From Filomicrobium sp. (lineage in GTDB: Bacteria; Pseudomonadota; Alphaproteobacteria; Rhizobiales; Hyphomicrobiaceae): DNA of 64,000 bases. Positions 22,166 to 34,121 of this stretch are shown here, one piece after another (the first letter of the stretch is position 1; each line of letters opens with the position of its first letter). The translations under genes were made by a program, and so were the position numbers. The DNA is taken from positions 2,172,606 through 2,236,605 of the forward strand of contig CP051234.1 of the NCBI GenBank assembly GCA_017792465.1, written 5' to 3'. Under the pieces are notes generated by a model. That model ran no database searches and was not told the DNA's origin. It saw nothing but the letters and a program-made list of their open reading frames with translations.

Positions 22166-22562
22166 TGTGATGCGTTTCCCGAAATTTATCGCCGATGGCT
22201 TTGGAGCTGGATGATCCTACGTCATTTAGGATGTCGACGCAGAATGCAAACCGTCCTTTTCAGCATAGCATCTAGACAGCGCCGATAAGACTGGCAAGGC
22301 AAGGCGATCTCTTTGCTGCAGCGCACACCGGACGAACTGCAAACTTAAGCAATTTTTTGTATTTTATACTTGTATACGGAAATTATGAACACCGCTCCTG
22401 TTCTTGCATACAATCGCATTTGCGCGTTGCGAGATCACATTTTCTGATGATGCCTAATTTCGAGTTTGGACCTTCGTACGACGCTTGTGCTGCGACAAAA
22501 TTTACTCCACGCTGACCTCAATCATAAAGCTCCAATCACATAACCCGGACCAGACGAACTGG
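22166..22562. other. 397-base divergent region moaA/torD-like gene
   Basis: AT-richer than flanks, especially 22340-22400, where a palindrome (own entry) and likely promoter elements lie. It should drive moaA leftward and the formate dehydrogenase genes rightward. No coding frame or riboswitch is recognised. Confidence 0.5.
22365..22376. promoter_or_regulatory. Palindrome TATAC-TT-GTATA, candidate operator
   Basis: A perfect 5-2-5 inverted repeat in the AT-rich stretch upstream of the fdh genes. The right half (TTGTATAC) resembles operators bound by GntR/FCD-type repressors (TTGTATACAA). TATACT at 22365-22370 could also serve as a -10 box. No GntR gene is nearby. Confidence 0.3.
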
Positions 22563-23225
22563 ATGCGGGCGGAGCGGTTCCAGCGAGGTTTCGATAGAGT
22601 GCGTTCGGGAGCTACCAGCAAAGTCTCGGATATCGAGCCCGTATCTCAATTGTCTCCTGAAGATCAACTTCGGGTGCAGCTCCTGCAGGTGCTCGCCACG
22701 CCGCTTGCCAATCCTCCGAATTCGCAGATCCTGGAAGCTTTCGGCCAGATTTCGGGCGACGATACCGAACTTGGGCAGGCCTTATCCGATTGTGGCGCAG
22801 CGGCGCGCGATACGACGGTTGAAGCCGAAGACGACGCCTACCACGAGCTCTTCATCGGTGTCGGTTCGGGCATTCTTATCCCGTTCGGATCTTACTATCT
22901 CACCGGCTTTTTGCACGAGAAGCCGCTTGCAAAGCTGCGTACAGACATGACCAAGCTTGGCGTCGAGCAAGACCCCGACGTCAAGGAGCCCGAAGATCAC
23001 ATCGCGTCGGTTCTGGAACTGATGGCCGGACTGATCGACGGGCGCTTTGGGACACCGACGTCGCTGGAACAGCAGCGTGCATTCTTCGAAGAGCACGTCG
23101 GCTCATGGGCACCGCATTTTTTCAAAGACCTCTCAGAAACCCGTCCGTCGGAATTCTATGCGACGCTAGGGCGGCTGGGAGCCATATTTCTAGAAATCGA
23201 AAAGAAGGCTTTTGAGTACGTCTAG
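22563..23225 (+). CDS. TorD-family molecular chaperone of formate dehydrogenase
   Basis: TorD/DmsD-type chaperones bind the Tat signal of a molybdoenzyme and hold it until the cofactor is inserted. The all-helical protein shows AYHELFIGVGSGILIPFGSYYLTGFLHEKPLAKLR, matching the conserved ELFxG...P.gSyYltG core, and EDHIASVLELMAGLI, matching the EPEDHI motif of the family. ATG 22563 gives 220 aa; the frame is open to a TTG at 22485, and neither start has a good Shine-Dalgarno. It is directly upstream of the small Tat protein and fdhA, whose Tat signal is the probable client. Confidence 0.88.
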   Translation: MRAERFQRGFDRVRSGATSKVSDIEPVSQLSPEDQLRVQLLQVLATPLANPPNSQILEAFGQISGDDTELGQALSDCGAAARDTTVEAEDDAYHELFIGVGSGILIPFGSYYLTGFLHEKPLAKLRTDMTKLGVEQDPDVKEPEDHIASVLELMAGLIDGRFGTPTSLEQQRAFFEEHVGSWAPHFFKDLSETRPSEFYATLGRLGAIFLEIEKKAFEYV

Positions 23226-23557: not shown

Positions 23558-26500
23558 ATGCTCAAGAAAAAAGCGAACGGCAGTGCTTCGCGCGGTCATT
23601 TGGCGGCGTCGGCATTGTCAAGACGGTCATCATCGGGCGTGGTCGACAGACGCCAGTTCCTGCGCAACTCCGGCCTCGCGGCCGGAGGAATTGCGGCAGT
23701 TACCGCACTGTCGACGACGCGGGTCAAAAAGGCTGAAGCAGCGGCCGGCACCGCCGGTGGCAAGGTCGAGATGAAGAAATCGGTGTGCACGCACTGTTCA
23801 GTCGGCTGCACCGTGATGGCGGAAGTCTCCAACGGCGTTTGGGTCGGTCAGGAACCTGGCTGGGATAGCCCGTTCAACCTGGGTTCGCACTGCGCCAAAG
23901 GCGCGTCGGTTCGCGAGCACGCGCATGGTGCGCGGCGCTTGAAGCACCCGATGAAGCTTGAAGGCGGCAAGTGGAAAAAGATCTCCTGGGATCAGGCGAT
24001 CAACGAAGTCGGCGACCAGATGCTCAAGATCCGAGAAGAGTCTGGACCGGATTCGGTTTACTGGCTCGGCTCGGCGAAGTGGAACAACGAGCAGGCCTAT
24101 CTGGGGCGCAAGTTCGCAGCCTTCTGGGGCACGAACAACGTCGACCACCAGGCTCGTATCTGTCACTCGACGACCGTCGCAGGTGTTGCCAACACCTGGG
24201 GCTACGGCGCGATGACGAACTCGTACAACGACATCCTGAAGTCGAAGGCGATCTTCCTCATCGGCGGCAACCCGGCCGAAGCGCACCCGGTTTCGCTGCA
24301 GCACATCCTGAAATCGAAAGAGCAGAACAACGCGCCGCTCATCGTCTGCGACCCGCGCTTCACGCGTACGGCCGCACACGCCAGCGAGTACGTCCGCTTC
24401 CGTCCAGGTACGGACGTGGCGCTGATCTGGGGCATCCTTTACCACATCTTCGAAAACGGCTGGGAAGACAAAGAGTTCATCCGCAAGCGCGTTTGGGGCA
24501 TGGATCAGGTCCGCGAGGAGGTGAAGAAGTGGACGCCTGAAGAAACCGAGCGCGTCACCGGCGTGCCGGGTTCGCAGATGAAACGCGTGGCCTATACGCT
24601 GGCAACCCACAAACCGGGCACCGTCATCTGGTGCATGGGCGGCACGCAGCACACGAACGGCAACGACAACACGCGTTCGTACTGCATCCTGCAGCTGGCA
24701 CTCGGCAACATGGGTGTCGCTGGTGGTGGCACCAACATCTTCCGCGGCCACGACAACGTCCAAGGCGCAACTGACCTTGGCGTCCTGATGGACACGCTGC
24801 CTGGCTACTACGGACTGTCGGCGGGAGCGTGGAAGCACTGGGCGCGCGTTTGGGACGTCGATCACGGCTGGTTGTCAGACCGTTTCGCCAAGATGCCCGG
24901 CAAGGGCAAGGACGGCGGCGACCTGTTGATGATGAACGAAAAGGGCATCCCGGTATCGCGCTGGTTCGACGGTGTTCTGGAAGCTAAAGAGAATATCGGT
25001 CAGCCCGACAACACGCGGGCCATGGTGTTCTGGGGTCATGCGCCGAACTCGCAGACGCGCGGTCCCGACATGAAGAAGGCGATGGAGAAACTCGACCTCC
25101 TCGTCATCATCGACCCGTTCCCGACGGTGTCGGCGGTCATGCACGACCGCACCGACGGGGTCTATCTGCTGCCAACTACGACGCAGTTTGAGACCTACGG
25201 CTCGGTGACGGCTTCTAACCGCTCCTTCCAATGGCGCGAGAAAGTCTTCGAACCGCTGTTCGACTCCAAAGTCGACCATGAGATCATGTATCTCCTGGCC
25301 AAGAAGTTCGGCTTCGAAAAAGAGTTCTTCAAGCACATCGAGGTGAAGGGCACCGAACCTGTCATCGAAGACATTACCCGCGAATTCAACCGCGGCATGT
25401 GGACGATCGGGTACACGGGCCAGAGCCCCGAACGCCTGAAGAGGCAGATGGAAAACCAGGCAACCTTCGACAAAGTGACGTTGAAGGCCAATGGTGGTCC
25501 ATGCGACGGCGAATACTACGGCCTGCCGTGGCCGTCGTGGGGTACGGCTGAAATGGGTCACCCCGGCACCCCGAACCTTTACGATACGTCGTTGCCGGTT
25601 GCCGAAGGCGGCTTGTGCTTCCGCGCCCGCTTCGGGGTTCAGGCTCCGGAGAAATACGCCAAGGGCGATCCGGATGCCGACAACCTGCTGGCGGTCGAAT
25701 CCTATCCGGTCGGTTCGGAGATCAAGGACGGTTATCCCGAGATCACCTACGCCATGATCAAGAAGCTCGGCTGGGACGGCGATCTCACGCCGGAAGAAAG
25801 GGCTTCGATCGAGAAAGTCGCTGGCGTCGTCAGGAAAGGTGGCGAGGAAGTCGGCGAGCAGGACATGCACGCTCAGCCTTCCGACTACGACGAGAAGATG
25901 GGCAAGGTGAACTGGAAGGTCGACCTTTCCGGTGGCCTGCAGCGCGTCGCGATCAAGCACGGACTGGCTCCGTTCGGAAACGCCAAGGCCCGCGCCGTGG
26001 TGTGGACGTTCCCGGATCCTGTGCCGATGCACCGCGAACCGCTCTACACGCCTGATCCGGAGCTGGCCGGCAAATATCCGACCTTCACCGACCGCAGGCT
26101 GCACCGTCTGCCGGTGCTTTACGAAACGATCCAGAAGAAGGGTATCGAAGAAAAGGTCTCGGAAAACTATCCGATCATCCTCACCTCCGGCCGTTTGGTC
26201 GAATACGAAGGTGGCGGCGACGAGACCCGTTCGAACCCATGGCTCGCAGAACTCCAGCAGAACATGTTCGTGGAGATTAACCCGCGCGATGCCAACAATC
26301 TCGGTATCAAGGATGGCGAGATGGTCTGGGTCGAAGGCCCTGAAAAGGGCAAGGTCAAGGTCATGGCCATGCTGACAGAGCGTGTCGGCACGGGCGTTGC
26401 GTTCATGCCGTTCCACTTCGGCGGCATGTTCCAGGGCAAGGACCTCAGGTCCAAGTATCCGGAAGGCTCCGACCCTTACGTTCTGGGTGAAGCCAGCAAC

Positions 26501-26581
26501 ACCGCGCAGACGTACGGCTACGACGCCGTGACGCAAATGCAAGAAACCAAAACAACGCTCTGCAAGATCTGGAGGGCCTAA
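23558..26581 (+). CDS. fdhA: Formate dehydrogenase catalytic (alpha) subunit, Mo-bis-MGD
   Basis: Oxidises formate to CO2 in the periplasm. ATG 23558 follows CAGGAGG and gives 1007 aa; the frame is open to 23360 but that part overlaps fdhX. Tat motif VVDRRQFLRN is at 28-37. The N-terminal [4Fe-4S] ligands are Cys77, 80, 84 and 112 (CTHCSVGC...HCAKG). The Mo ligand is Cys202 (ARICHSTTVAG), the cysteine rather than selenocysteine form, followed by the proton-relay His. The C-terminal MGD-binding domain starts near TSGRLVEYEGGGDETRSNPWLAE. FdhB follows after three bases. MobA, MobB, FdhD and the TorD-like protein in this window serve its maturation. Confidence 0.96.
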   Translation: MLKKKANGSASRGHLAASALSRRSSSGVVDRRQFLRNSGLAAGGIAAVTALSTTRVKKAEAAAGTAGGKVEMKKSVCTHCSVGCTVMAEVSNGVWVGQEPGWDSPFNLGSHCAKGASVREHAHGARRLKHPMKLEGGKWKKISWDQAINEVGDQMLKIREESGPDSVYWLGSAKWNNEQAYLGRKFAAFWGTNNVDHQARICHSTTVAGVANTWGYGAMTNSYNDILKSKAIFLIGGNPAEAHPVSLQHILKSKEQNNAPLIVCDPRFTRTAAHASEYVRFRPGTDVALIWGILYHIFENGWEDKEFIRKRVWGMDQVREEVKKWTPEETERVTGVPGSQMKRVAYTLATHKPGTVIWCMGGTQHTNGNDNTRSYCILQLALGNMGVAGGGTNIFRGHDNVQGATDLGVLMDTLPGYYGLSAGAWKHWARVWDVDHGWLSDRFAKMPGKGKDGGDLLMMNEKGIPVSRWFDGVLEAKENIGQPDNTRAMVFWGHAPNSQTRGPDMKKAMEKLDLLVIIDPFPTVSAVMHDRTDGVYLLPTTTQFETYGSVTASNRSFQWREKVFEPLFDSKVDHEIMYLLAKKFGFEKEFFKHIEVKGTEPVIEDITREFNRGMWTIGYTGQSPERLKRQMENQATFDKVTLKANGGPCDGEYYGLPWPSWGTAEMGHPGTPNLYDTSLPVAEGGLCFRARFGVQAPEKYAKGDPDADNLLAVESYPVGSEIKDGYPEITYAMIKKLGWDGDLTPEERASIEKVAGVVRKGGEEVGEQDMHAQPSDYDEKMGKVNWKVDLSGGLQRVAIKHGLAPFGNAKARAVVWTFPDPVPMHREPLYTPDPELAGKYPTFTDRRLHRLPVLYETIQKKGIEEKVSENYPIILTSGRLVEYEGGGDETRSNPWLAELQQNMFVEINPRDANNLGIKDGEMVWVEGPEKGKVKVMAMLTERVGTGVAFMPFHFGGMFQGKDLRSKYPEGSDPYVLGEASNTAQTYGYDAVTQMQETKTTLCKIWRA

Positions 26582-26584
26582 TCC

Positions 26585-27178
26585 ATGGCACGCATGAAGT
26601 TTCTCTGTGACGCCGAGCGCTGCATCGAATGCAATGCCTGCGTCACCGCTTGTAAGAACGAGAACGAGGTGCCGTGGGGTGTGAACCGCCGGCGCGTCGT
26701 AACCATCAACGACGGGTCTCCGGGCGAGCGCTCGATTTCGGTGGCCTGCATGCACTGCTCGGATGCGCCGTGCATGGCTGTCTGCCCGGTCGACTGCTTC
26801 TATCAGACCGAGGACGGCGTCGTTTTGCACAACAAGGATCTGTGCATCGGCTGCGGTTACTGCTTCTACGCCTGCCCATTCGGCGCACCGCAGTATCCGC
26901 AAGCGTCCAACTTCGGCTCTCGCGGCAAGATGGATAAGTGCACCTTCTGTTCGGGTGGTCCGGAAGAGAACTTCTCGGACGCCGAATTCAAGAAGTACGG
27001 CCGCAACCGTCTGGCCGAAGGCAAGCTGCCGTTGTGCGCAGAAATGTGCTCAACGAAGGCGCTTCTGGCCGGCGACGGCGACCAGGTGTCGAACATCTAT
27101 CGCGAGCGTGTTGTTGCCCGCGGCTTCGGCAGTGGCGCCTGGGGCTGGGGCAAGGCCTATCCTGGCCAGGCCGGCTAG
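26585..27178 (+). CDS. fdhB: Formate dehydrogenase iron-sulfur (beta) subunit
   Basis: 197 residues carrying four ferredoxin-type motifs: CIECNACVTACKNE (about 14-27), CMHCSDAPCMAVCPVDC, CIGCGYCFYACPFGAPQ, and CTFCSGG with later Cys in LPLCAEMCSTKAL. It passes electrons from FdhA to the cytochrome b subunit FdhC. It has no signal of its own, so it is presumably co-exported with FdhA by the Tat system. It starts three bases after the fdhA stop. The hairpin at 27215 follows. Confidence 0.96.
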   Translation: MARMKFLCDAERCIECNACVTACKNENEVPWGVNRRRVVTINDGSPGERSISVACMHCSDAPCMAVCPVDCFYQTEDGVVLHNKDLCIGCGYCFYACPFGAPQYPQASNFGSRGKMDKCTFCSGGPEENFSDAEFKKYGRNRLAEGKLPLCAEMCSTKALLAGDGDQVSNIYRERVVARGFGSGAWGWGKAYPGQAG

Positions 27179-27514: not shown

Positions 27515-27654
27515 CGAAGGCGCAAAAGAACACGCATGCGAGGGTGAGGTCGTCACAAGGCCCAAGCGGAAACAGCGCCCCTCAAAAAGAAAGCCAATCA
27601 AACTCAAGCCGCGAACGCGCACGAAGCTGCCGGAAATGCGGACAGGAGAGCGAG

Positions 27655-28794
27655 ATGCACAGGTCCAAGATGTTAGGCGGAAGCGCGAAGGTGTTGGCGA
27701 GCTTCCTGTTTGTGGCGCTTCTGGTCTTGGCGGCCATGCCGGCATTGACGCTTTCCGCGGATGCACAAAACGTCCGCCCACCAGAGAACGCGGTCAATGC
27801 CGGAGGCCCACCGCAAACGGTGCCGCAGGAAGGCGGAAGCTACGACCCGGAACTTTGGAAAGAGCTGCGTCGCGGCGTGCAGGGCACGGTTTCGATCCCC
27901 GACAAGAAGGCGGGCATCCTGGTCGATTCATCGGGCGAGACCTGGCGCGCGGTGCAGAACGGTCCGCTCCCCGTATATGGCTCTTACCTCCTCGGCGGCA
28001 TAATTGTGTTGCTCGCCCTGTTCTTCCTTATCCGCGGCCGCATCAAAATCGAACATGGCCGGGCTGGCGTGACGATCGAACGCTTTACTGATTTCGAGCG
28101 CATCGGACACTGGCTGCTGGCGACGTCCTTCATCATTCTGGCGCTCAGCGGACTTAATATTCTTTACGGGCGGTATGTGCTGATCCCGGTCGTCGGCAAA
28201 GAGGCTTTTGCGGCGATCGCGGCGACTGGGAAATGGCTGCACAGCTATGTCGCCTTCGCGTTCATGGTCGGCCTCGTCATGACCTTTGCGACGTGGGTCT
28301 GGTATAACTTCCCGCATCCGCGCGATCTGGTTTGGTTCCTCAAAGGCGGTGGCATTTTGGGTGGCGGTCATCCGGAGGCCAAGAAATTCAATGCCGGGCA
28401 GAAGGTTCTGTTTTGGCTGGTGATGCTTGGCGGATTGTCGCTGAGCCTATCCGGACTGCAGCTGCTGATGCCTTACGAACTGCCGTTTTTCGGAAAGACG
28501 TTCGCCTTCCTCAATGGCTTGGGCTTCGACCTGCCAGCCAACCTTTCGGCCAACGAAGAGCAGCAGCTTGCCACGGTCTGGCACGGCATCGTCGGGCTGG
28601 TGCTGATGGCGGTGATCATCGCCCATATCTATATCGGATCGATCGGTATGGAAGGTGCGTTCGAAGCGATGGGCACTGGCGACGTTGACCTTAACTGGGC
28701 AAAAGAACACCATAGTCTTTGGGTCGAAGAGGAACTGGAGCGCGACCCAGATCGTTCGACAGGATCGTCGGCGAGGCCGACGCCTGCCGAATAA
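27655..28794 (+). CDS. fdhC: Formate dehydrogenase cytochrome b (gamma) subunit
   Basis: 379 residues from ATG 27655 (AGGAG upstream). A signal-like hydrophobic segment (about 11-37) and a periplasmic stretch lead to a cytochrome b561-type membrane core. The core has helices at about 105-123 (YLLGGIIVLLALFFLI), 145-168, 190-215, 245-262 and 308-330. Candidate haem-b His residues are in RFTDFERIGHWLLA, WLHSYVAFAF, TVWHGIVGLV and IIAHIYIG, as in the FDH-N gamma family. It anchors FdhAB at the outer face of the membrane and reduces quinone or a haem partner. A WD40-cytochrome c gene follows after 19 bases. Confidence 0.94.
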   Translation: MHRSKMLGGSAKVLASFLFVALLVLAAMPALTLSADAQNVRPPENAVNAGGPPQTVPQEGGSYDPELWKELRRGVQGTVSIPDKKAGILVDSSGETWRAVQNGPLPVYGSYLLGGIIVLLALFFLIRGRIKIEHGRAGVTIERFTDFERIGHWLLATSFIILALSGLNILYGRYVLIPVVGKEAFAAIAATGKWLHSYVAFAFMVGLVMTFATWVWYNFPHPRDLVWFLKGGGILGGGHPEAKKFNAGQKVLFWLVMLGGLSLSLSGLQLLMPYELPFFGKTFAFLNGLGFDLPANLSANEEQQLATVWHGIVGLVLMAVIIAHIYIGSIGMEGAFEAMGTGDVDLNWAKEHHSLWVEEELERDPDRSTGSSARPTPAE

Positions 28795-28813: not shown

Positions 28814-30313
28814 ATGGGTTTGCGGCTTTGTACTGAGAGCTTTGGGCACAAGACCGCCGTGGCGTTCGCAGCGAGCTTTTGTCTGGCCTGCGAAGCGCTT
28901 GACCCCATGGCGGTTCTGGCTCAGGCGCGCGCGGAGACCGTGAAACGCGTGGCCAAGGCCCCGGACAAGGCGGACCTTACCGTGAGAGGTTTCCTCGTCG
29001 GACACGGAGGACCCGTGAAGGCCGTCAGTGCCGATCCCAAGCGCCGCGTCGCGCTGACAGGCAGCTTCGACTACGCCATGATGGCATGGGATGTATCGGG
29101 GGATGTGTCGGGAGACGCTGCCAAGCTCTTACATCGTTTCGATGAGCACGAGGGTGCCGTCAACGCGGTGGCGTTTGTGCCGGGGTCATCGCAGGTGCTG
29201 GCGGCGGGAGACGATGGCGCGCTGTGGGTGTGGGATCTTGAGACCGGCAAGCGGGTGCATCGCTTTGAAGGCCATACGGCGAAGGTCGTTGGCGTTGCGG
29301 TTTCCGACGACGGAACTTGGGCCGCGACCGCGAGCTGGGATCGGACGGCGCGGCTGTGGAACTTGAAGACGCTGAAGCCCGGGCCGGTTCTTAGTGAGCA
29401 TAAGGGGCCGGTCAACGCCGTACAATTCTCCAAAGACGGTTCGCGCGTCTTTACCGCGAGCTACGATGGCGCTCTGCGAATTTTCAAGACCGACACCGGC
29501 GAATTCATCAGACCCGTTCATAAGCACGGCTGGGGGATCAACGTCCTCAAGCGGCTGCCGGATGCTCCCGGCAAGCTCGTTTTCGGCGCGCTTGATGGCA
29601 CGGCTGCGGTCGTCGATGTCGAAAGCGGGAAGATCGTCGCGGAACTGCGCAAGGCTGACCGGCCGATCCTGTCGCTTGATGTGACGCGGCAGCCGGGCCT
29701 GATCGCGACCGGTGGTGGCGATGGGACCGTCAACGTTTTTCGCAGCGGCGACTTTCAAGCGATCGAGGAATATCAGAACCCTTACGGTCCGGTGTGGGGG
29801 CTTGCTTTTGCACCGGGCGGATCGAAGCTCTACATCGCCGGGCTCGATGATTTCGTGACGCTGTGGACGATCACGCCGCGCGAACCTTTCGATGCCGTCG
29901 ACAGCCCGTTCCCGAGACGCTTCCAGGTGTCCGAAACCGGTGACGATCCCGTCGAACAGGGGCGCATCCAATTCGCGCGAAAATGCAGCGTCTGCCATAC
30001 GCTCAAAAAGGACGGCAGAAACCGCGCCGGGCCGACGCTCTATGGGTTGTTTGGGCGGAAAATCGCGGCGCTACCCGATTACCCCTATTCAGAAGCGCTC
30101 AAACATCTTGATATCGTTTGGGATGAGACGACGGTCGGCAAGCTTTTCGAACTGGGTCCGGAGCACTTCACTCCAGGCTCGAAAATGCCTCTGCAGAAGA
30201 TGACGGACAAATCGCAACGCGATGCGCTGGTAGCGTATCTGAAGATTGCCACGGCCGCGCAAGGCGCTGAGGGCCAGGCAGCTGAACCGGAAGACAAAGG
30301 AAAAGACCAATGA
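28814..30313 (+). CDS. WD40 beta-propeller fused to a c-type cytochrome domain
   Basis: 499 residues. After a hydrophobic N-terminus (TAVAFAASFCLACEALDPMA) that may be a signal, there are about seven WD40-like repeats from residue 60 to 360, with typical ends such as GALWVWDLETG, RTARLWNLKT and GTVNVF. A class I cytochrome c domain follows: haem site CSVCH at 391-395 and Met ligand Met458 in GSKMPLQKM. The last 20 residues are acidic. Co-directional with fdhC, 19 bases away, it could take electrons from the dehydrogenase in the periplasm. The propeller may be a docking surface. Electron transfer is inferred from position. Confidence 0.88.
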   Translation: MGLRLCTESFGHKTAVAFAASFCLACEALDPMAVLAQARAETVKRVAKAPDKADLTVRGFLVGHGGPVKAVSADPKRRVALTGSFDYAMMAWDVSGDVSGDAAKLLHRFDEHEGAVNAVAFVPGSSQVLAAGDDGALWVWDLETGKRVHRFEGHTAKVVGVAVSDDGTWAATASWDRTARLWNLKTLKPGPVLSEHKGPVNAVQFSKDGSRVFTASYDGALRIFKTDTGEFIRPVHKHGWGINVLKRLPDAPGKLVFGALDGTAAVVDVESGKIVAELRKADRPILSLDVTRQPGLIATGGGDGTVNVFRSGDFQAIEEYQNPYGPVWGLAFAPGGSKLYIAGLDDFVTLWTITPREPFDAVDSPFPRRFQVSETGDDPVEQGRIQFARKCSVCHTLKKDGRNRAGPTLYGLFGRKIAALPDYPYSEALKHLDIVWDETTVGKLFELGPEHFTPGSKMPLQKMTDKSQRDALVAYLKIATAAQGAEGQAAEPEDKGKDQ

Positions 30314-30549: not shown

Positions 30550-32634
30550 CTAGCTCAGAAAGTCGCTTGGCTTCTTGCCGTTGGCCGGGTTTGTGTCGGT
30601 ACCTTCGTTCAAATAGTCGTCGGTCGTGCGGACGCGCGGGCGCTCGCCCATCGAGAACGGATCGTTCTTTGACGTCGCCAGCGCGACGACCCGGCAGTTG
30701 TCGCACATCTGGATCAGGCGAAGCTGGTTTTCATCCTTGAACATCGAATGGCCGCGCAGCTTGTCGACGACCTTAGTGATCGACGACTTGGCTCCGAACG
30801 CCTTACCGCACTCGATACAGTGGAACGGTTCTTCGGACTTGATGACATCCGGCGACAGCGCCTGGCTGGTGAAGTTGTATCTCGGCTCAAGCGCGATGAC
30901 TTTCTCCGGACATGTCGCGACGCAGATGCCGCATTGGACGCAGGCCTGCTCGACAAACGCGAGTTGCGGTTTGTCTGGGTTGTCGCGCAATGCATTGGCC
31001 GGGCAGGCGGCCACACATGACAAGCACAGGGTGCAGTTTTCGACGTCAATGGCGAGACGGCCATAAGGGGCGCCGGCCGGCAAGGCGATGATATCTTGCG
31101 GGTTGGGTGCATCCTGGTGCAATTGGGCGAAGACTGAGCGTGCAACTTCGCGCTTGGTCCCGACGCCCGTCAGGCGATGTGACGGCATTGGCTGAAGCGG
31201 TGCAGCGTCATGAAGGACAGCTTCGACGGCATCGGGATCGACTTCGGCAAGAACCTCGACACGTGGCCCGTCATATCCGAGCGCTTCGAGCATGTTGTTG
31301 GCGAGGCCCGACTGACGCGTCAGCGAGTCGAGCTCTTCGGCATGCTTGGGAGACGCCAGGACGAAGAAGCGTCCGGCACCCAGTGCCAGCGTTGCGGCCA
31401 TCATGTCGTGTCCGAGCGACATGACGCTGTTGAGCGCCATCGGAATGACGTTGGCGGGCAAGCCGCGGCCGAAACGGGCCATCGCTGCGATCAGTTCGGC
31501 GCCATGTTTTTCGTCGTGCGCAAGAAGGACGGGGTTGTTGCCGCCGGCCTTCGTATAGGCGTCGAGCAGCACCGATGTGCGCTTCAGGAAATCACTGCGA
31601 TAGGGGAGGGCATAGCTTGCTGCTCCCGTCGGGCAAACCGAAGCGCAGTTGCCACAGCCGCCGCAGATGGCCGGATCGATGCTGACGGCATCGCCGCCGG
31701 GGGAAATGGCGCCGAGCGGGCAAACCTCAAGACAGTTGGTGCAGCCGACGAGGCCAGACCGCGAATGCGCGCAGATGCCGGCATCGAAAGAGATGTAGCG
31801 CGGCTTTTCGAACTCGCCGACCAGATCGACGAAGTCGAATAGTTCGTTGGCCAAGCCGGCCGGATCGCCCGGATCGACTCGCAGATATCCATCGCGACGA
31901 TCGTGCCCGGTAAACAGTGGCGTGCCGCCGCTCAGGTCGAGGATCAAATCGCAGTCAAACGATTGCCGGGGAACAGCGTCGTCGAAGGTGAAGCCCTGGC
32001 GCGAGGAGGGTTGGACCTGCGCGCATTTTTCAATCGTGACCTGGAAGTTGCCTAACGCCCCTTGCGCGGCTTTGATGCGGCCGGAGAAGATTGGGAACTC
32101 GGCACGCGCCGGTGGGATGGCGTCACCTGCTTCGGCAAGAACAAGAATTGGCGACAGACGATCCTTGATGCGCTCTGCAGCTTCGAGCGCCTGCTGACCG
32201 GAGCCGTAGACGATACAGATGCCTTCCGACTTGAGGGTGATCGACGCGGTCATTTCCGGCGCAAACGACGCCTCGGAAATCAGCGCGGCCATTTTGGGAC
32301 CGGCGTCGGCGCCATTTTCGGCCCAGCCCGCCGTTTCGCGAATGTTGGTGAAGCGCAGTTCAGCCTGCGAGTCCATTTCGTCGGCAAGGCTGGCGAAGAG
32401 CGGCGCCTCTTGCGTGCAAGTGATATGTATACATCCGTCTCCGTCGAGGGCCTTTTCAACTGTCTCGATTCCGGCCCGGCAGAGTTCCTGATGAACCGGC
32501 AATGCCTCGTCCTGACCGAGTCCTTTTGCCAGTTTAGCGCCGTCGATTTCCATCGTACGCTGACAATTACAGACAAAGAGGCGGTCCGGCGCTGAAGTAT
32601 AGTTCTTCAAAAGATCATTCTCCTCGACTGACAC
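30550..32634 (-). CDS. Multi-cluster 4Fe-4S ferredoxin-type protein of formate dehydrogenase locus
   Basis: 694 residues, cytoplasmic. N-terminal CNCQRTM and further Cys (GCIHITCTQE) form an unusual cluster region. Two ferredoxin motifs lie mid-chain (CAHSRSGLVGCTNCLEVCPLGA; CGGCGNCASVCPTGA) and two in the C-terminal third (CTLCLSCVAACPANAL; CVQCGICVATCPEKV). More Cys pairs follow, in HCIECG and MCDNCRV. Proteins of this layout accompany fdh, DUF3305 and DUF3306 genes in Shewanella-type clusters, but their job is unproven; electron supply for cofactor maturation is one idea. It is transcribed against fdh, divergent from DUF3305. Confidence 0.85.
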   Translation of the reverse strand: MSVEENDLLKNYTSAPDRLFVCNCQRTMEIDGAKLAKGLGQDEALPVHQELCRAGIETVEKALDGDGCIHITCTQEAPLFASLADEMDSQAELRFTNIRETAGWAENGADAGPKMAALISEASFAPEMTASITLKSEGICIVYGSGQQALEAAERIKDRLSPILVLAEAGDAIPPARAEFPIFSGRIKAAQGALGNFQVTIEKCAQVQPSSRQGFTFDDAVPRQSFDCDLILDLSGGTPLFTGHDRRDGYLRVDPGDPAGLANELFDFVDLVGEFEKPRYISFDAGICAHSRSGLVGCTNCLEVCPLGAISPGGDAVSIDPAICGGCGNCASVCPTGAASYALPYRSDFLKRTSVLLDAYTKAGGNNPVLLAHDEKHGAELIAAMARFGRGLPANVIPMALNSVMSLGHDMMAATLALGAGRFFVLASPKHAEELDSLTRQSGLANNMLEALGYDGPRVEVLAEVDPDAVEAVLHDAAPLQPMPSHRLTGVGTKREVARSVFAQLHQDAPNPQDIIALPAGAPYGRLAIDVENCTLCLSCVAACPANALRDNPDKPQLAFVEQACVQCGICVATCPEKVIALEPRYNFTSQALSPDVIKSEEPFHCIECGKAFGAKSSITKVVDKLRGHSMFKDENQLRLIQMCDNCRVVALATSKNDPFSMGERPRVRTTDDYLNEGTDTNPANGKKPSDFLS

Positions 32635-32775
32635 GGCTCAGAAGGCGTTCAGAAAAAAACAGAATTTCTGCCCTCGCGCCACGACCCCCTTTAAAGATTC
32701 GGAAAGTTCAACTAAGGTCGACTTCTGGCGTAGGACTATCGTCTACGACATATTGAAGCAGAGGTGAACTCTCGA

Positions 32776-33375
32776 ATGGCTTCTGCCAGCTTGATTTCTA
32801 TCGGTGTCGTCGTTGCCCGTGAACACATCGGGCATCCTTGGCAAGCCTATCGCTGGAGACCGGTGAGTGTCTTTCTCGACGCTCCCCAAATCAGTTCCTG
32901 GCGAGAGTTGCGCAAAGACGGCAAGAATATTCTATACCATGCCGCGACGCTGAATCTCGAACTCCATCGCAAAGAAACGACCGCTTATCAGGTCAATCTT
33001 GCGAATGGCGAACCCTCCGTTTACGTGGTGTTGAGAGAGGACCCCGATGCGGCCCGCGACTGGCCGGTCGATGTTCATCTGGTGACTGTGTCGCCGTTCG
33101 AGGCGCAGTCGCATGGCGATGTTGGTTTTGATAGCGTCGAAGGCGTCGCGATGCCCGACCGGCTCGTGGAAGTCGTTCGCGAGTTCATTAAGATGCATCA
33201 CCGGGAAGAGACCTTCTATAAGCGCAAGCGGCAGCCTCATACGCAGGCTGAGGAATATAAGTTCGGACAAGAGCCGATCATTTCCCTGCGCGAGCGTTCA
33301 GGTTCGCCCTATGAGACACCCGCGACCAACGGCAAGGATCGCGAAGTGCCCGATGATGGGCGCAGGGATCGTTGA
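32776..33375 (+). CDS. DUF3305 protein of formate dehydrogenase locus
   Basis: ATG 32776 with AGAGG upstream gives 199 aa; a GTG at 32764 is the alternative. The core ISIGVVVAREHIGHPWQAYRW and VSVFLD, and later YQVNLANGEPSVYVVLR, match DUF3305 as I know it. The C-terminal part is polar with FYKRKRQPHTQAEEYKFG. Its stop overlaps the DUF3306 start (TGATG), so the two are coupled. Their constant linkage with fdh genes implies an accessory role in making or regulating the enzyme. No catalytic residues can be named. Confidence 0.85.
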   Translation: MASASLISIGVVVAREHIGHPWQAYRWRPVSVFLDAPQISSWRELRKDGKNILYHAATLNLELHRKETTAYQVNLANGEPSVYVVLREDPDAARDWPVDVHLVTVSPFEAQSHGDVGFDSVEGVAMPDRLVEVVREFIKMHHREETFYKRKRQPHTQAEEYKFGQEPIISLRERSGSPYETPATNGKDREVPDDGRRDR

Positions 33376-34121
33376 TGACGGACAAGGCTTCACAGCAGGT
33401 TTCGTTTCTTGAGCGATGGTCGCGGCGCAAGCGCGGCCTCGAAGACGATCGCGCAGAGGCTGTTGTCGAAGCCGCAGACGAGGCTCCCCTCGCACGCGAC
33501 CCAAGCGATCCGTCAAATGCCGCGACAGCTGTTGCCGGTGAAGATCAACAGCCAGTGTCGAGCGAAGACGCCGAACCGCTGAAAGACTTCGCCGATTTCG
33601 ATTTCGAAAAGCTCGATTACGAGTCCGACTACACGCAGTTCATGGGTAACGACGTGTCGAGCGACGCGCGGCACAAAGCGCTCAGGAAGCTTTGGGTCTC
33701 CAACCCCGTCCTCGCCAACATGGATGGGCTCGACGACTACTGCGAGGACTATACCGACGCCGCCGTTTGTGTGCCCAAGGGCATGCTGAAGACGGCTTAC
33801 CAGTATGGCCGCGGTTTCCTTGATGATGCCGAAGTCGCCGAGTGGGAAGCGTTAGGTCGCGAGCCGGAGGCGGTTGCAGAAGCAGCGTCCGATGAGGAGG
33901 CCGTTGCCGTTGCAGAAAGCGCTGAGGGTCAGGCTGAAGCTGACGGCGCCGAGGTCGCGGCGGTCGACGCTGCCGAAGTCGATGCGGCCGATCACGCTGC
34001 CGCGGATGCTTCAAGCGGGGCCGGTGCTGCGTGTGGCGCGGCAGTCAAGCAGGAAGACGCGCAAATGCTCGCCGAGTTCGATGAAGAGAATTCTTCGCAG
34101 CCGCCTGAAGCGAAAAGCTGA
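33375..34121 (+). CDS. DUF3306 protein of formate dehydrogenase locus
   Basis: 248 residues. N-terminal FLERWSRRKRGLEDDR and central DFADFDFEKLDYESDYTQFM, then ARHKALRKLWVSNPVLANMDGLDDYCEDYTD, are DUF3306 hallmarks. From about 150 the chain is Ala/Glu/Asp-rich and probably disordered (EAVAVAESAEGQAEADGAEV), with a Cys in GAGAACGAA. The ATG overlaps the DUF3305 stop by one base. The function is unknown; linkage to fdh points to biogenesis. Confidence 0.85.
   Translation: MTDKASQQVSFLERWSRRKRGLEDDRAEAVVEAADEAPLARDPSDPSNAATAVAGEDQQPVSSEDAEPLKDFADFDFEKLDYESDYTQFMGNDVSSDARHKALRKLWVSNPVLANMDGLDDYCEDYTDAAVCVPKGMLKTAYQYGRGFLDDAEVAEWEALGREPEAVAEAASDEEAVAVAESAEGQAEADGAEVAAVDAAEVDAADHAAADASSGAGAACGAAVKQEDAQMLAEFDEENSSQPPEAKS

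Follow-up and report, generated by a model that had tools for sequence, protein, structure and literature searches.

The gene that directly follows fdhC in the window (the whole 64,000-nucleotide stretch analysed here) encodes a WD40 propeller-cytochrome c fusion protein whose partnership with the FDH3-type formate dehydrogenase is, on genomic grounds, close to certain, and which is probably an overlooked part of formate electron uptake in many Alphaproteobacteria. We favour reading it as a periplasmic accessory subunit for electron transfer, in which the propeller would dock on FdhABC and the tethered haem would link the complex to a high-potential c-type pool; we give this reading a probability of about 0.48.

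The reading frame is uninterrupted from its ATG at 28814 to its stop at 30313, with GGTGAG immediately 5' of the ATG and a gap of 19 bases to the fdhC stop at 28794 (Table 1). The earlier note had taken this frame to be a fusion of a seven-bladed WD40 propeller and a cytochrome c, and both the Pfam matches and an AlphaFold2 model bear this out. The match to PF00400 (WD40) is at 3.2e-40 with 135.3 bits against a cut-off of 27, and that to PF00034 (Cytochrom_C) is at 2.7e-7 with 32.3 bits against a cut-off of 21.3. In the model, for which a 45-row alignment was the input (mean pLDDT 87.4, pTM 0.82), a seven-bladed propeller (57-355) precedes a fold of the class I cytochrome c type, and the 27 strands of three or more residues at 68-352 make up, together with a short strand at 61-62, seven blades of four strands each. 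Among the PDB matches listed, the top solved match to the propeller is the bacterial WD40 protein 5yzv (Z 43.0, rmsd 1.7, 287 residues aligned). By PF00400 and the seven-bladed fold as modelled the protein is thus a WD40 repeat protein. No PQQ-repeat or haem d1 propeller family was among the best 25 of 42 Pfam matches and the PDB matches listed were of the WD40 type; a solved protein in which a WD40 propeller and a cytochrome c are joined was not among these PDB matches, the propeller domain filling those lists.

The cytochrome domain alone matched horse mitochondrial cytochrome c at 2.1e-23. The CycA c-550 model (NF043008) matched the protein at 1.4e-14 with 54.4 bits, which is under its equivalog cut-off of 240, and no NCBIfam model was above cut-off among the best 25 of 71 matches. 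The CSVCH motif and the Met458 ligand had been read correctly in the earlier note, and C391, C394, H395 and M458 are unchanged in 45 of 45 aligned proteins. With PF00034, CxxCH and the distal Met all present, the domain is by sequence a class I cytochrome c, to which haem attachment is predicted.

Table 1. Features of the propeller-cytochrome gene and of the surrounding FDH3 locus, in positions of the window
Feature	Position	Strand	Basis
TorD-like chaperone gene (listed ORF)	22485..23225	+	PF02613 6.6e-29; conserved neighbour
fdhA, molybdopterin subunit, Tat motif RRQFLRNSG	23558..26581	+	start placed at in-frame Met before the motif
fdhB, FDH3 beta subunit (4Fe-4S)	26585..27178	+	NF038355, 348.9 bits against cut-off 240
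fdhC, cytochrome b gamma subunit	27655..28794	+	TIGR01583, 142.5 bits against cut-off 115.85
WD40 propeller-cytochrome c fusion protein (P0001), 499 aa	28814..30313	+	intact ORF, Pfam, AlphaFold2 model
Probable Sec signal peptide, residues 1-40	28814..28933	+	cleavage predicted after ARA
Seven-bladed WD40 propeller, residues 57-355	28982..29878	+	Pfam, AlphaFold2 model, PDB match
Class I (mitochondrial/c2-type) cytochrome c domain, residues 374-484	29933..30265	+	PF00034, CycA model, horse cytochrome c
CSVCH haem-binding motif, residues 391-395	29984..29998	+	alignment
Met458, distal haem ligand, within KMPLQ	30185..30187	+	alignment
Convergent multi-4Fe-4S ferredoxin-like gene	30550..32634	-	conserved FDH3-locus neighbour
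Two conserved FDH3-locus genes, DUF3305- and DUF3306-like	32764..34121	+	position in annotated loci

The protein is probably periplasmic by way of Sec. A Sec-like hydrophobic N-terminus was found in 67 of the 68 relatives listed, the remaining one (L018) being cut by a contig edge, and this count is supportive and no independent test because the starts were picked partly for hydrophobicity. The hydrophobic stretch of the window's own protein is moderate and pLDDT is low in the signal region. A cytoplasmic location, which the earlier note had named as counting against its proposal, looks unlikely.

The placing of the gene straight after fdhC in a formate dehydrogenase operon also holds, and by sequence this operon is of the FDH3 type, as judged from beta (NF038355) and gamma (TIGR01583) subunits above their cut-offs and from the haem-b histidines, which are kept. 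FdhABC of the NF038355 type is known from Methylobacterium as FDH3. The ATG of fdhC was inferred from an upstream AGGAGAGCGAG, the listed ORF beginning at 27544. TorD-like, 4Fe-4S and DUF3305/3306-like genes flank fdhABC here and in relatives, and plasmid annotations place genes of these kinds around fdh3B in Sinorhizobium meliloti and Salipiger and include, for these FDH3 loci, a '4Fe-4S binding protein'. The names DUF3305 and DUF3306 are presumably the right ones for the two genes at 32764..34121, and they agree with the position in the annotated loci.

Co-occurrence with FDH3 was counted in 103 genomes of the window's family, in 385 evenly sampled Alphaproteobacteria and in 299 genomes of the phylum. 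In the family sample there were 29 strong matches to the protein and 32 to FDH3 beta; 29 genomes had both, none the protein only, 3 FDH3 beta only and 71 neither, with G004, G009, G033, G046 and G048 left out of the count of carriers because their best match was a partial propeller (E 1e-21 to 5e-26). When the window's protein was the query in the class sample, the corresponding numbers were 37, 1, 19 and 328 (38 carriers; Fisher 2.7e-36), and when the 45-row alignment was the query they were 44, 2, 12 and 327 (46 carriers; Fisher 3.2e-44), the Fisher values being descriptive as they ignore shared ancestry. As to the two exceptions, in G330 fdhC adjoins the propeller gene near a contig end (L122) and FDH3 beta was not found, and in G109 a split pair lies near a contig end (L157) and no FDH3 was found; this split pair (637-1704, 1857-2753) adjoins a gene that by eye resembles a tungstate/molybdate-type binding protein. 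Two genomes missed by the alignment search, G146 (L096) and G230 (L101), contain the propeller at the FDH3 locus, so that the propeller in some form is present in 46 of the 56 FDH3-bearing genomes of the class sample. No relative was found in nine of these 56 (G153, G166, G177, G250, G256, G388, G415, G466 and G470), the contig of G166 ending about 0.5 kb after fdhC, and the tenth, G461, has a decayed copy only.

The gene also lies close to FDH3. Among the 38 carriers the distance to FDH3 beta was 5 kb or less in 30 and 5-15 kb in four, and the unlinked genes were 253 kb away in G450, 86 kb away in G137 and on another contig in G259, these three genomes being still FDH3-bearing despite the gene lying elsewhere. 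In the phylum sample there were 17 full-length matches, every one of them from the window's class and from a genome with FDH3 beta, three partial WD40 matches (G509, G596 and G681) having been left out, and none of the 20 FDH3 genomes outside Alphaproteobacteria had a full-length relative. This accessory is what distinguishes the present locus from FDH3-type FdhABC (NF038355), with which it is the same in fdhA, fdhB and fdhC and in the TorD-like, 4Fe-4S and DUF3305/3306-like neighbours. By co-occurrence and linkage the protein is specific to FDH3, and the genomic tie is near-obligate. The presence of FDH3 without it in nine genomes, in G461 with its decayed copy and in the 20 genomes outside the class means that the protein is dispensable. 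The description of the protein as dedicated to formate dehydrogenase is supported by co-occurrence and linkage in the sense of a genomic partner only, and its architecture, which had been called rare, is not so in the FDH3 setting, being found fused in 37 of the 385 sampled Alphaproteobacteria.

Besides these 37 genomes with the fused form, nine genomes of the class sample had a match to the propeller that ended short of the cytochrome. In eight loci (L100, L101, L104, L108, L130, L131, L157 and L158) the cytochrome has its own gene, which lies tail to tail with that of the propeller and encodes a Sec-like N-terminus of its own, and a neighbouring cytochrome gene was not found at three propeller-only loci (L096, L109 and L159). 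The strongest evidence for the two domains working together is that the separate genes stay adjacent and that elsewhere the same domains are joined in one protein. The Met region of L101, L104 and L108, KMYGG, is closer to that of an ordinary carrier cytochrome, and for this reason a replacement of the cytochrome is possible at these loci. The decayed form is represented by L111 (7865-8491), where the copy beside fdhC is shortened, the propeller is mostly gone and the haem motif is now CANFH. In the propeller tree of 78 rows, which was midpoint-rooted and in which L030, labelled fused by default, is a generic WD40 protein without cytochrome, the split and propeller-only forms are nested inside the fused ones; with its uncertain root this suggests fission of an older fusion. 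At FDH3 loci without the protein no stand-alone cytochrome next to fdhC was found by a CxxCH ORF scan, which used a crude overlap filter, or by a domain HMM search, which is the better evidence.

Whether the protein takes over from the quinone route was judged from 53 FdhC rows, 30 from loci with the fused protein, 6 from split loci and 17 from loci with neither. For every one of the four haem-b histidines, 52 of the 53 rows retain the residue, the misses being in the group with neither, and no column among the 53 rows separates loci with the protein from loci without it. FdhC looks like a quinone-type cytochrome b throughout. A replacement of FdhC by the propeller-cytochrome was rejected, as the haem-b histidines are kept either way and there is no discriminating column. 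Because of these histidines, and because some FDH3 loci are without the protein, it would add to the quinone route and not replace it. Where it had been proposed that formate electrons reach a c-type pool rather than, or beside, quinone, 'beside' therefore fits better than 'rather than'.

In the mechanism that we propose, Tat-exported FdhA would oxidise formate and the electrons would pass via the Fe-S clusters of FdhB to FdhC, whose haem b groups would reduce quinone. The WD40 propeller would hold a mitochondrial/c2-type cytochrome c beside FdhABC, and the tethered haem may then exchange electrons between FdhABC and the high-potential c-type pool, by which formate electrons might gain a second route to a haem-copper oxidase. 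That the protein is a dedicated electron acceptor docking on FdhABC, as had been suggested, is plausible. The electron-transfer reading draws on the operon position, the co-occurrence, the linkage within 15 kb and the adjacent split genes, and also on the invariant haem ligands, the Sec-like N-termini, a domain of the soluble-carrier type and the presence of haem-copper oxidases in the window's own genome, in which there were three matches to haem-copper oxidase subunit I and eight other class I-like cytochromes. Counted against it are the three propeller-only loci, the split pair in G109, where no FDH3 was found, the dispensability of the protein and the consideration that direct transfer from formate to cytochrome c would forgo coupling at the bc1 complex. 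Also against it, nothing in FdhC betrays a second electron exit, as there is no discriminating column and the four haem-b histidines are present in both groups. The more specific proposal that alphaproteobacterial FDH3 is a two-outlet enzyme, which delivers electrons to quinone and also hands them directly to a propeller-tethered cytochrome c of the mitochondrial type, is tentative and somewhat doubtful. Were it true, FDH3 would act as a membrane formate:cytochrome c oxidoreductase that brings along a carrier of its own, and in some lineages the latter would be divided between a propeller for docking and a carrier encoded separately.

The main rival is a supercomplex tether, in which the propeller would hold FdhABC to the bc1 complex, the oxidase or both and the haem would be fed only via quinol and bc1, the fused cytochrome c being a bc1-to-oxidase carrier kept close. 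An intact, quinone-type cytochrome b in FdhC, a cytochrome domain that resembles the ordinary carrier between bc1 and oxidase and the existence of FDH3 without the protein in other lineages would all fit this. However, tethering alone leaves it unexplained why FDH3 should be singled out from other quinone-reducing dehydrogenases, and the window's own genome already has the eight other class I-like cytochromes. We regard this explanation as unlikely. Distinctly less probable in our judgement is that the protein is a redox sensor or quality-control factor and no electron conduit, its haem reporting periplasmic redox state or oxygen and its propeller stabilising, gating or protecting the exported FdhABC. 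The loci where the propeller occurs without a neighbouring cytochrome gene (L096, L109 and L159) indicate a possible separate role for the propeller, and maturation genes are abundant in the FDH3 locus, but it would be unusual for a sensor to be a carrier-type cytochrome that has His/Met ligation and strictly kept ligands and is akin to soluble carriers. We consider it very improbable that the gene's place in the operon is incidental, with the protein serving a general function outside formate metabolism. Orthologues unlinked to formate dehydrogenase do occur, in G450, G137 and G259 and also at L049, L053 and L054, but the genomes with unlinked orthologues still carry FDH3 and the co-occurrence is near-perfect in two samples, and it is on the co-occurrence that the incidental neighbour was rejected.

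Each part of the favoured accessory subunit is of a known kind. With cytochrome c-550, cytochrome c2 and mitochondrial cytochrome c the domain shares CxxCH, His/Met ligation and similarity across its whole length, but here it is C-terminal to a WD40 propeller and it misses the CycA cut-off. The seven four-stranded blades are those of WD40 propellers such as PkwA (5yzv) and WDR5, whereas here the propeller is predicted to be secreted and is joined to a haem protein. Cytochrome cd1 nitrite reductase and the PQQ quinohaemoprotein dehydrogenases also combine a periplasmic propeller with a cytochrome c, and in these enzymes the propeller carries the catalytic cofactor; the general plan is the same, but the propeller here is, by the Pfam and PDB matches listed, of the canonical WD40 type. 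No description of a WD40-cytochrome at a formate dehydrogenase locus was found in the open-access literature, and in the main texts of PMC12628762 and PMC5934484 the term WD40 is absent. The combination, as a conserved partner of FDH3 in Alphaproteobacteria, thus appears to be undescribed in the open-access literature. Public plasmid records gave 17 matches, named 'c-type cytochrome' or 'hypothetical protein', from Sinorhizobium, Bradyrhizobium, Sagittula, Salipiger, Alloyangia, Sulfitobacter, Tateyamaria and Methylobacterium. FDH3 loci with the propeller-cytochrome gene were seen in Sinorhizobium and Salipiger. The protein has further relatives in Methylobacterium, Bradyrhizobium and other roseobacters.

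In methylotrophy, as in much of the one-carbon metabolism of seas and soils, the final energy step is the oxidation of formate. If the protein is a dedicated carrier, the respiratory maps of such bacteria miss a branch, one that would trade energy yield for speed or relieve over-reduction of quinone. The propeller-cytochrome would also serve as a natural model of how a formate dehydrogenase can be wired to a cytochrome c.

Some further features of these loci were recorded. The convergent multi-[4Fe-4S] protein (30550-32634, minus strand) had no NCBIfam model above cut-off among the best 25 of 71 matches. The window's own genome has a second FDH3-type fdhABC (L057, C1:637000-656900), the FdhA and FdhB of which are 63% and 87% identical, respectively, to those of the window, and no propeller-cytochrome gene was found in its neighbourhood. 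In L096, L098, L109, L122 and L133 a gene for a small secreted protein, PepSY-like by eye, lies directly 3' of fdhC.
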